Source: Candidatus Gastranaerophilales bacterium
Lineage (GTDB): Bacteria > Cyanobacteriota > Vampirovibrionia > Gastranaerophilales > Gastranaerophilaceae
Reading direction: 5' to 3'
Length of the DNA: 39,003 nucleotides
Assembly (NCBI GenBank): GCA_944324405.1
Contig: CALUWF010000014.1
Location: forward strand, 1-39,003
The notes under the pieces are model-generated. The model worked only from the letters and a program-made list of their open reading frames with translations, was not told the origin of the DNA and made no database searches. The position numbers and the translations under genes were made by a program. Positions 30,837 through 34,539 of this stretch are shown here, piece after piece. How positions within the stretch are numbered: position 1 is the stretch's first letter; the number at the start of each line of letters is the position of its first letter.

Positions 30837-30946
30837 AATAACCTTATATAACGGGGAATTTCAGCTATATATTACTATATTTTACCAATAAAAAGTTCAT
30901 CTAAAGAATGGAAAAAGTTTTGTTGCCCAACAGTTATAATTACTAT

Positions 30947-33214
30947 ATGAAAAAGACTAAAAAGCGCGTAATTGCATATCTTCAAACGCATTGGGACAGA
31001 GAATGGTACAGAGAGAAGGAAGAGTTTAATTTAAGGCTTCTTGAAGTTGTTGACGAAATTTTAGAAGAACTTAAAAAAGGCAATGCGCCCTGCTTTTATT
31101 TTGACGGACAAACAAGCGCTTTAATTGATTATCTTAAATTTTATCCCCAAAAACTTCCGCTTATTAAAAAATTTATAAAAGAGAAAAAATTTTTCATAGG
31201 CCCTTTTTTTGTAAGTGCGGATGCTTTTTTGGTTAATTTAAGATGTCTTGTAAAAAATCTTGAAAAGGGTATAAATTTTTCAAAAGCCCTCGGATGTAAT
31301 GATTTTATAGGTTATCTGCCGGATATTTTCGGACACAGCCGCGGAGTTTTTGAAGTTCTTGAAAAATTTAATATAAACAATGCAATTATCTGGCGCGGCA
31401 CGGGCGCAATCAAAAGTGAATTTAAGGCGCGAAATATCAATACAACAAGGCTTGTTGAGGGGTATTTTATAGATACTCTTCATCAAAATTTTGAACCTTG
31501 GGAGCTTGCACAAAATATCGAACAGCTGCTTGATAAAATTGCAAAATATTCAAAAGACACCCTGCTTTTACCTTTGGGCGGCGACCATCTTGCAATAATT
31601 AAAAATGCGGATAAGAAAATAAAAGAGGTAAATAAATATTTAAAAAAATACGAAATTGAACTTAAAAGCCCGTTTGATTACTTTTCAAACGTTGAGTTTA
31701 ATAAAGTAAAAAAATATCCGGGCGAATTTTTAGATAACAGTGAAAACAACATTTTGGGCGGTGTTTTTTCTTCAAGAATTTATCAAAAAATCCAAAATAC
31801 AAAATTAATGCATAAAATTTCAAGGATTGTCGAGCCGCTGAATTATTTTCTCAACCTCAACTATGCGCCAAGTATTGAATATGCCTATGAATTGCTTTTA
31901 AAAAACCATGCACATGATTCAATTTACGGCTGTTCGACAGATTTTGTACATAAAAACGCAGATATGCGTTTTGAGAAAACAAGAGAAATTTTGGAAGGAC
32001 TTGAAAAAAGAATTATTCGCGATTTTTATAAAAGTACCAAAAAACCTTGCCATATAGGTGTTTTTAATATGTCAAATTATAAAAACACGGGAATTGTAAA
32101 AGTCGTAAGCGAACACAAAATTAAAAATGCACAAATTATCGCAAAAACTAAAGGCTTTAGTGATTTAAAATTGTATGATATTAATCAAGTACCAGTCACG
32201 GAAGACATATTAACGCTTTATGAACAACTTGTGGAGCTTGACGGGCAGCAAGGCATGAGTTTTTGCTCTCATATCCCAAAATGTCCCAAAAAGCTTACAA
32301 AGGCTGATGTAAAAAGTATTGAAAATCCTTATTTAAAACTGAGCGTTAAAAACGGTAAAATAAATATATCGGACAAACTTAGAAACATACAGTATAAGGA
32401 CTTTTTAAAGATAACCGATACAAAAGATAGTGGAGACAGCTATAATTACGCCCCGTCATCACATCCTCAAAAACTTGAAATAAAAGGTGTAAAAGTCATT
32501 GAAGACGGCACTATACGGTCTGTTATAAGAATATTTTACAAAAATCTTACACTCGATGTAATTTTGGATAATAAAAGCAGATACTTTGAATTTTGCGCAA
32601 ACATAGACAATAAAAAGAAAAATCATAAGCTACAAGCGGTTTTTAATCTTAAAAATCCTGTTTTTGAAAGCTATGCGCAAGATTCGATGGGAATTATAAA
32701 AAGAGAATGCGACCCTTATTATTCGCTTTTTGAAAATCAGCCCGCAAAACGCCCTTATGAACTTAAAACCAATTCTTTTCCCATGTTGAATTTTGTTTAT
32801 GCGCAAAACTGCGGCGTTTTGGGCGAAGGGATAAACGAGTATGAAATTTATAAAAATGAACTTAGAATAGCACTCCTTCGTGCAACGGGAATTATTTCAA
32901 ACCCAAAATGCCCTTCGCGTTCCATTCCTGCCGGCCCGCCGCTTTTAACCCCTGATTTACAGTGTTTGGGCAAAATTAATGTACGCTTTGGACTGTGTTT
33001 TAGTGATGATAAAAACGAGATGTTTAAATTCAGCGAGCAATTTTTAAACACACAGTGCGCCTTCGTGCTTGATAAAAAAATGGAAGATATGATATTTTTA
33101 AAGCCTGAAAAAAACAGGATATTTTACGGAATACACGGCGATTTGGGAATTTTTTACGATATTAAAAAAGATAAAATTGACTTCTCGCCGCTTGCAATAA
33201 ATAAAAAAATCTAA
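30947..33214 (+). CDS. Glycoside hydrolase family 38 (alpha-mannosidase-like)
   Basis: A cytoplasmic GH38 enzyme of about 755 residues. Zinc and catalytic signatures: THWDREWY near the N-terminus, GYLPDIFGHS with the nucleophile aspartate, and NHAHDSIYGCSTDFVH. No signal peptide is seen, so it would act on internalised mannosides such as mannosylglycerate or N-glycan fragments. I prefer the ATG at 30947, from which the conserved region starts within 15 residues; an in-frame ATG at 30908 is possible. TATAAT lies 6 bases before 30947, so either that message is leaderless or the upstream ATG is used. The partner gene downstream is an amidohydrolase-like protein. Confidence 0.88.
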   Translation: MKKTKKRVIAYLQTHWDREWYREKEEFNLRLLEVVDEILEELKKGNAPCFYFDGQTSALIDYLKFYPQKLPLIKKFIKEKKFFIGPFFVSADAFLVNLRCLVKNLEKGINFSKALGCNDFIGYLPDIFGHSRGVFEVLEKFNINNAIIWRGTGAIKSEFKARNINTTRLVEGYFIDTLHQNFEPWELAQNIEQLLDKIAKYSKDTLLLPLGGDHLAIIKNADKKIKEVNKYLKKYEIELKSPFDYFSNVEFNKVKKYPGEFLDNSENNILGGVFSSRIYQKIQNTKLMHKISRIVEPLNYFLNLNYAPSIEYAYELLLKNHAHDSIYGCSTDFVHKNADMRFEKTREILEGLEKRIIRDFYKSTKKPCHIGVFNMSNYKNTGIVKVVSEHKIKNAQIIAKTKGFSDLKLYDINQVPVTEDILTLYEQLVELDGQQGMSFCSHIPKCPKKLTKADVKSIENPYLKLSVKNGKINISDKLRNIQYKDFLKITDTKDSGDSYNYAPSSHPQKLEIKGVKVIEDGTIRSVIRIFYKNLTLDVILDNKSRYFEFCANIDNKKKNHKLQAVFNLKNPVFESYAQDSMGIIKRECDPYYSLFENQPAKRPYELKTNSFPMLNFVYAQNCGVLGEGINEYEIYKNELRIALLRATGIISNPKCPSRSIPAGPPLLTPDLQCLGKINVRFGLCFSDDKNEMFKFSEQFLNTQCAFVLDKKMEDMIFLKPEKNRIFYGIHGDLGIFYDIKKDKIDFSPLAINKKI

Positions 33215-33237
33215 TATCATTGCATTTAGGGGGAAAA

Positions 33238-34539
33238 ATGTCAAAAGGTTACAGCGCAAAATGGATTATAGCTTCCGACGGCAATGTTTACGAGGATTGC
33301 ACCCTTGTTTGTGATGAGGGCAAGGTTGAAAAAATCATAAAAACCTCGGAGGTTAATAATTCCGAATGTAAAAATATAAAAGACTACGGAAGATGCGTTA
33401 TAACTCCCGGCTTTATAAATTTACACAACCACCTGCAATACAGTAATGTAAACCAAAAAGAAGGCGGAATAAAATACACTTTTAAAAAAGCCTATACCGT
33501 ATTAAAAAAACAGTATTTTGCGGCAGGAATTAAGAAAAACTCTTTTGTATACAGGCTTTTTGACCTTTTGGGTAAATATTTTTGTCTAAGTGCCCGCCAC
33601 AAGCTCGCCTCATTTAAATTAGGGCTTGAAGAGTCGCTTTTGTGCGGTACTACCTGTGTTGCGCAATTGTCAAAAGAGAGTAAATATTTTGATGTTTTAA
33701 ACGAAGTGCCGATAAAAACTTATCTTTTCTTTGAACTTTTTTCCGACTCCGCACAGACAAGCAAAGAGGAGTTTAGAAATATTCAAAGGAAAATTGATAA
33801 ACTTTTAAAACAAAAGTCGGAAAATACTTTTGTCGGCGTTGCCCCGCACAGCGTTTGTTCTGTGCATAAAAGGCTTTTTAAAATCCTTGTAAAATACTGT
33901 TCAAAAAACAATATTTTAATGACAATAAGAATTTCGGAAAGCAGAGAAGAAAAAGATTGGCTTAAATACGGCTTTTCAGACATTGACCTTTTAAATGAAT
34001 TCTGCGGGAATAAAAAATTTGAGCCTTTGTTTAAAGGCGTAAGTTCGACTCAATATCTTGCCTCCATGAATGTTTTAAATAAAAGGCTGATTGCAAGTTA
34101 TGGCAATTATTTAGATGATTTTGACCTTGAAATTTTAAAGAATAATAAAGTTGCTCTTGCCTATTGCCCGAGAGTCAGCAAAAATCTTCATGATAAAGTG
34201 CTTGATTTTGATAAAGTTTTAAAATATTTTCCGGAAAGATTTGGCTTTGGTACAAATTCTCTTGCATTTAACAAAGATTTGAGCCTTTTAAACGAATTGA
34301 GAAGCGTTAATTGCGGGCGCCTAAATACTATTGATGCAATAAAATACCTGACAATAGTTCCCGCTAAAATTTTAAGGCTTGATAATATGATAGGAAGCCT
34401 TGAAAAGGGAAAAGACGCCGATTTTAACGTATTTTTACTTGATGAAAACGAAGACTATAATGCAGTTTTAAATAAATCGCGCCCTGATTTTGTCTATATA
34501 AAAAGCTTAAGAAAAGTCCAAAACGGCAAATTGAGATAA
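33238..34539 (+). CDS. Degenerate amidohydrolase-like protein
   Basis: A 433-residue member of the ATZ/TRZ/cytosine-deaminase amidohydrolase family by overall pattern: ITPGFINLHNHLQ, GTTCVAQ, VAPHSV, YCPRVSKNLH and LEKGKDADFNVF. The first metal pair H63-x-H65 is kept, but the third histidine is R231 (in TIRISES), the fourth conserved histidine position is S288 (in LIASYGN), and the metal aspartate of GTDS is N340 (GTNS). Catalysis as a metal deaminase is therefore doubtful. The ATG at 33238 has GGGGG upstream. It follows the GH38 gene by 23 bases and is likely co-transcribed. Confidence 0.8.
   Translation: MSKGYSAKWIIASDGNVYEDCTLVCDEGKVEKIIKTSEVNNSECKNIKDYGRCVITPGFINLHNHLQYSNVNQKEGGIKYTFKKAYTVLKKQYFAAGIKKNSFVYRLFDLLGKYFCLSARHKLASFKLGLEESLLCGTTCVAQLSKESKYFDVLNEVPIKTYLFFELFSDSAQTSKEEFRNIQRKIDKLLKQKSENTFVGVAPHSVCSVHKRLFKILVKYCSKNNILMTIRISESREEKDWLKYGFSDIDLLNEFCGNKKFEPLFKGVSSTQYLASMNVLNKRLIASYGNYLDDFDLEILKNNKVALAYCPRVSKNLHDKVLDFDKVLKYFPERFGFGTNSLAFNKDLSLLNELRSVNCGRLNTIDAIKYLTIVPAKILRLDNMIGSLEKGKDADFNVFLLDENEDYNAVLNKSRPDFVYIKSLRKVQNGKLR

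Follow-up and report, generated by a model that had tools for sequence, protein, structure and literature searches.

A probable metal-free pseudoenzyme derived from aminofutalosine deaminase in gut Candidatus Gastranaerophilales

The amidohydrolase superfamily, to which dihydroorotase belongs, is metal-dependent but has metal-free members, among them LigI, a demonstrated lactonase. The CRMP/DPYSL proteins, animal relatives of dihydropyrimidinase, are non-enzymatic and have cytoskeletal roles. The pDHO of Pseudomonas aeruginosa aspartate transcarbamoylase, an inactive dihydroorotase homologue, is described as necessary for the activity of its partner (PMC7053772). Inactive amidohydrolases kept for other work, such as pDHO and the CRMPs, are already known. 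The best sequence matches to the protein reported here are to MqnX, the aminofutalosine deaminase of the futalosine menaquinone pathway, in the form of the Helicobacter pylori AFLDA (7lkj, 7lkk) and the related Nitratiruptor Nis_0429 (3v7p, 4m51).

The gene under study lies in a 39,003-nucleotide stretch of Candidatus Gastranaerophilales DNA (contig CALUWF010000014.1), here called the window. Its product has a fold like that of MqnX (Z 41.7 to 7lkj) and partly keeps the xxxES..E..W stretch that follows the lost His, but it is without a complete metal site, its substrate-site residues are altered and the pathway is absent. It resembles pDHO in being an apparently inactive homologue kept in a bacterium, and differs from it in belonging to another subfamily and in having lost its parent pathway, while pDHO has a known partner. 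Like LigI and other metal-independent amidohydrolases, it appears to be a metal-free member of the superfamily; it differs from LigI, for which lactonase activity was demonstrated. With the CRMP/DPYSL proteins it would share the reuse of the amidohydrolase fold as a non-enzymatic protein, and it differs from them in that they are animal proteins of the cytoskeleton related to dihydropyrimidinase. What is unusual here is a preserved series of intermediates tied to the loss of the parent pathway. No description of the protein was found, by title or start of abstract, among the papers listed on Gastranaerophilales/Melainabacteria metabolism, the futalosine pathway and its deaminases, inactive dihydroorotases or amidohydrolase and TIM-barrel pseudoenzymes.

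The gene and the metal-site residues of its product

The window's family (f1) consists of Candidatus Gastranaerophilales gut MAGs and is divided here into sub-clade A, which includes the window, and sub-clade B. The features of the locus are listed below.

30908..33214, + strand: GH38 gene, mannosylglycerate-hydrolase-like, the upstream neighbour; genus-specific and probably outside the function
33229..33233, + strand: GGGGG as read in the sequence, likely the ribosome-binding site of the ATG at 33238
33238..34539, + strand: gene for the putative pseudo-aminofutalosine-deaminase, amidohydrolase fold, 433 aa, stop codon within the coordinates (PF01979, 8.9e-31)
33424..33432, + strand: codons 63-65 (H-N-H), the HxH pair kept in the window's sub-clade and lost in the other
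33928..33930, + strand: codon 231, Arg replacing the first barrel His ligand (R in 80/80 named relatives listed; His in 17/17 intact homologues)
33937..33939, + strand: codon 234, Glu of the old HxxE motif, retained (E in 67/67 aligned rows and 80/80 named loci listed)
34099..34101, + strand: codon 288, Tyr replacing the second barrel His ligand (S288 in the original prediction)
34255..34257, + strand: codon 340, Asn replacing the Asp ligand

The original prediction, made from the sequence alone, was of an amidohydrolase with an intact frame over 433 codons. The frame does run uninterrupted from the ATG at 33238 to a stop ending at 34539, with the GGGGG ending four bases before the ATG, and the gene is single-copy in its own genome. 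The identity was upheld by a full-length match to Amidohydro_1 (PF01979) with an E value of 8.9e-31 over residues 54-422. The top NCBIfam model was the aminofutalosine deaminase family (121.5 bits, under the cut-off of 320), and the best sequence matches in the PDB were Nis_0429 (3v7p, 4m51) and the H. pylori aminofutalosine deaminase (7lkj). In AlphaFold2 models the barrel is complete both in the window protein (pLDDT 92.5) and in a sub-clade B protein with no His ligand left (pLDDT 92.0). The closest solved folds were tied, namely adenosine deaminase 4gbd (Z 42.2, rmsd 2.5, 382 aligned) and 7lkj (Z 41.7, rmsd 3.0, 391 aligned), and Foldseek gave TM scores of 0.79/0.83 against 7lkk. The PF01979 match and the AlphaFold2 model, with Z of 36-42 to many members, place the predicted fold in the amidohydrolase superfamily, whose members combine a barrel with an N/C-terminal beta-sandwich. 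The upstream GH38 gene encodes 768 aa, and its best NCBIfam model was mannosylglycerate hydrolase (profile length 885), matched over residues 17-523 and far under the curated cut-off.

The five ligand positions of the mononuclear deaminases correspond to H63, H65, R231, Y288 and N340 in the window protein. The claim that three of the five ligands are lost was therefore correct, as were the retention of H63 and H65 and the replacement of the third-ligand His by R231 and of the Asp by N340. The fourth ligand His is also lost as predicted, but the residue had been given as S288, which is off by one: residue 288 is Tyr and the Ser is residue 287. Aligned without gaps against relatives whose site is complete or nearly so (LIAVHVNQL / LIASYGNYL), the protein has Y288 where the His was lost. 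A further residue, E234 from the HxxE motif, is retained; the prediction had not mentioned it. Of the HxH, His, His and Asp that form the mononuclear site of a catalytic amidohydrolase, the window protein has the HxH only. An intact metal site formed by ligands at shifted positions, named at the outset as the case that would speak against the reading, was not seen, and one sub-clade is without His at any former ligand position. Shifted ligands were also considered as a candidate and rejected: H210, which the intact enzymes have as well, is the sole His to reach 97% invariance across the 67 aligned rows, and the conserved His in the alignment suggest no alternative metal site. As three or more ligands are missing and an Arg occupies the site, the window protein would hold no catalytic metal and would not deaminate. 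The window's sub-clade keeps H63 and H65, so weak metal binding is possible there.

Distribution of the altered site

The genomes compared were largely MAGs. The gene was present in 15/15 genomes of the window's genus, and 118 of the 288 sampled f1 genomes gave a match at E 1e-3 or better; ten weak partial matches were dropped, leaving 108 full-length uninterrupted genes across 16 genera. The residue counts come from two partly overlapping sets that do not cover all 108 genes in one alignment, namely 67 aligned rows (window included) and 80 named loci, the latter being 80 of the 131 named relatives found. The window itself (L001) and L066-L068, which are weak matches to another amidohydrolase, were left out before counting; L066 also matches the DHOase Pfam. 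Relatives with names are metagenome assemblies, mostly from the gut, labelled Candidatus Gastranaerophilales or related to it, and the nearest with both a genus and a species name among the matches listed is Candidatus Galligastranaerophilus intestinavium (85% identical).

The metal site was broken in all 67 aligned rows and in all 80 named loci listed. At positions 63/65/231/234/288/340 the named loci listed read HHREYN in 49 cases, HHREHN in one and [FL]QREN[QE] in 30, the first found in 49/50 sub-clade A loci and the last in 30/30 sub-clade B loci. Two near-fixed arrangements of the site therefore exist in the family, with R231 and E234 in 80/80 named loci listed; none of these has Asp at the Asp position, and 1/80 keeps His as the fourth ligand. 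The uniformity of this pattern over the 80 named relatives listed rules out chance or sequencing error. Across the 67 aligned rows, 83/433 columns were at least 97% invariant. Conservation of the former site is high but not exceptional when set against the invariant columns overall (with representatives under 85% identity, 34% for the 16 rows of sub-clade A and 16% for the 22 of sub-clade B), and position 63 is variable in sub-clade B. One very divergent sequence on a long branch (L062:350-1636, 35% identity) has Asp-Ala-Asn for HxH and Glu at 231 and is a possible third arrangement.

Ancestry and absence of the futalosine pathway

Homologues outside f1 were found by profile search of the order and phylum, in families named f2, f3, f4, f7 and f8. 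All five ligands were present in 11/11 f3/f4 homologues and 6/6 f8/f2 homologues. In the sister family f7 (2/2), H231 alone was lost, to Cys and Ser. The f7 loci are L117:3995-5320 and L118:3995-5326; the Cys could still bind zinc, and these proteins may be altered rather than dead enzymes. In a tree built with IQ-TREE, from which L136 and the second hit in L132 were excluded (order/class set), support (bootstrap/SH-aLRT) was 100/100 for f1, 100/94 for f1+f7, 92/95 for f1+f7+f3/f4, 100/98 for sub-clade A and 98/89 for sub-clade B, while the placement of long branches such as L062 and L129 was uncertain. Loss at 63, 65, 231 and 340 required one change each on this tree, and loss at 288 required two because the basal sub-clade A row L031 keeps that His. 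The ligands were thus lost stepwise, H231 before D340 and H288, and finally H63 and H65 in one sub-clade. Among residues that f1 has lost but that are invariant to 90% or more in the 17 intact enzymes are W106, Y207, N283, S313, N314 and S344, all of which f7 keeps, bar one W106. Their nearness to the catalytic motifs suggests that they line the substrate site.

Both the window protein and all 7 relatives scanned had aminofutalosine deaminase as their top NCBIfam model, the intact relatives scoring 148-178 bits, under the equivalog cut-off of 320. These sub-threshold matches, together with co-occurrence with the pathway, point to the intact homologues being MqnX, and the grouping of f1 with them in the tree shows its descent from that family. 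Three f3 loci (by eye) and 8/50 sub-clade A named loci listed have a dCMP-deaminase-like gene ahead of the homologue, which agrees with orthology.

Markers of the pathway were sought in 53 genomes. PF02621 (MqnA/MqnD) was found in 17/18 f2/f3/f4/f8 genomes against 0/35 f1/f5/f6/f7 genomes, and in 0/288 sampled f1 genomes, G000 included; in f2, a PF02621 gene lies directly downstream of the intact deaminase gene. TIGR03700 (MqnE) scored at least 380 bits in 17/18 f2/f3/f4/f8 genomes, 334 in G306, where the match may be a paralogue such as MqnC, and at most 55 in the other 35; no MqnE-like match above 55 bits was found in 27 f1 genomes. The strict curated TIGR03700 cut-off was passed by 9/53 genomes. 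A strong UbiA match (E 1e-50 or better) was found in 17/18 f2/f3/f4/f8 genomes against 0/35 f1/f5/f6/f7 genomes. From this distribution, the intact site tracks the pathway, and broken sites are confined to genomes in which no pathway was found. There were two exceptions, both in f3. G302 has the pathway genes and no homologue at 1e-10, and either another deaminase may serve or the MAG may be incomplete, while G308 (80% complete) has a homologue and no PF02621 match. Gastranaerophilales have been described as obligate fermenters without respiration genes (Soo et al. 2014, PMC4040986).

We propose that the ancestor was MqnX, a mononuclear-metal aminofutalosine deaminase, that these fermentative gut bacteria had ancestors that lost the pathway, probably before or with the first ligand loss, and that the deaminase was kept for another role, the window gene being the surviving member of the pathway. 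The ligands would then have been replaced in the order given above, and the substrate-site residues altered too. Surviving intermediates are f7 with one ligand lost, the window's sub-clade with three lost and the HxH kept, and the other sub-clade with all five lost. We regard it as evenly balanced whether, once the menaquinone pathway had gone, the site was rebuilt through them around an arginine, without metal and for a new function. If so, f1 and its relatives would form a resolved evolutionary series from a metalloenzyme to a metal-free protein under strong selection. Most pseudoenzymes come to notice at their end point alone; here one order would contain the intact enzyme, the intermediates and two end states, and the genomes that carry them also show the probable trigger, the disappearance of the parent pathway. 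Such a natural series would lend itself to asking how a protein outlives the pathway it served and which sequence of steps the dismantling of a metal site can follow.

Selection, gene neighbours and possible roles

The earlier suggestion that the gene is under selection for something was strongly supported. The dN/dS ratio was 0.026-0.061 (median 0.036; Nei-Gojobori, 11 pairs with dS below 1), and the within-genus median dN of 0.096 (85 pairs) was close to the 0.104 of MnmG (partial genes, 58 pairs) and roughly half the value for the adjacent GH38 gene (0.179, 77 pairs) and pilus genes (PilO-like 0.170, 65 pairs; PilMN-like 0.186, 69 pairs). A decaying relic without function might be expected from the loss of catalytic and substrate-site residues and from the lack of a match in many f1 genera and in the sampled f5 and f6 genomes, but this low rate of change, the full-length uninterrupted genes in 108/288 f1 genomes and the newly invariant residues leave it a negligible chance. 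As to those residues, 34 of the 83 invariant columns are f1-specific (shared by under 70% of f3/f4 enzymes), and 19 of the 34 fall in 149-260 (hypergeometric p 1e-4, an optimistic value as the region was picked post hoc), a clustering that suggests gained constraint, not mere persistence. A role with the neighbouring mannosidase, as its regulator or scaffold, had also been proposed. The GH38 gene is on the same strand with a 23-base gap, and among the matches listed it is directly upstream in 14/14 named loci of the window's genus (the 79-85% identity group, L149-L162). It was directly upstream in 0/66 named loci outside the genus among those listed, it evolves about twice as fast, and the protein is conserved without it. 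Being confined to one genus, GH38 cannot explain the conservation of the protein across 16 genera, so that the proposal is unsupported as a general role and we consider it very improbable.

The main rival to a binding or regulatory pseudoenzyme is a metal-independent enzyme, in which Arg231 would supply the charge that the metal once provided and Glu234 would remain the general acid/base while the barrel catalyses a different reaction. Metal-free enzymes are known in the superfamily, R231 and E234 are fixed in both sub-clades (80 named loci listed), Y309 and N397, which probably lie in the pocket, are newly invariant, and the barrel is predicted to be intact. Against it, neither the Asp nor either barrel His remains, and the sub-clades differ at four of the six site positions, which would be unexpected for one conserved reaction; we judge it unlikely, if the most serious of the alternatives. 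Sub-clade A might instead still use a metal bound by H63 and H65 together with a newly recruited third ligand, for instance Y288 or E234, given that HxH is kept in 50/50 of its named loci listed. An Arg at a ligand position disfavours a cation, however, and here it is invariant, while sub-clade B has lost both His and is predicted to fold equally well, which makes continued metal use quite unlikely. We therefore favour a neofunctionalised metal-free pseudoenzyme, descended from MqnX and kept after the pathway was lost to bind a ligand or partner, as the likely explanation. The old metal position would be held by the nearly invariant R231, close in sequence to the retained E234, and this pair and the altered pocket would take up a small anionic molecule, dock a partner protein or do both, probably with the newly conserved stretch 149-260. 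The annotation "amidohydrolase" or "deaminase" is probably wrong for this conserved gut-bacterial gene.

A point against the pseudoenzyme reading is that gene neighbours differ between the sub-clades, and no constant neighbour hinting at a partner was found across the 80 named loci listed. In sub-clade B a YjbQ (UPF0047) gene follows in 25/30 and Obg lies upstream in 23/30 named loci listed, both being 0/50 in those of sub-clade A. YjbQ was rejected as a candidate partner, since UPF0047 was present in 43/53 genomes regardless of the deaminase gene and is at best a sub-clade feature. The sub-clade B gene overlaps the following YjbQ gene by 4 bases (L039:3998-5718 and similar loci), which suggests translational coupling. 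One sub-clade B gene is in a sequence titled 'Fusobacterium sp. CAG:439' (L203, FR900454.1); it is 89% identical to that of a Gastranaerophilales bin (L205) and has the same YjbQ and Obg neighbours, and the label on FR900454.1 looks wrong.
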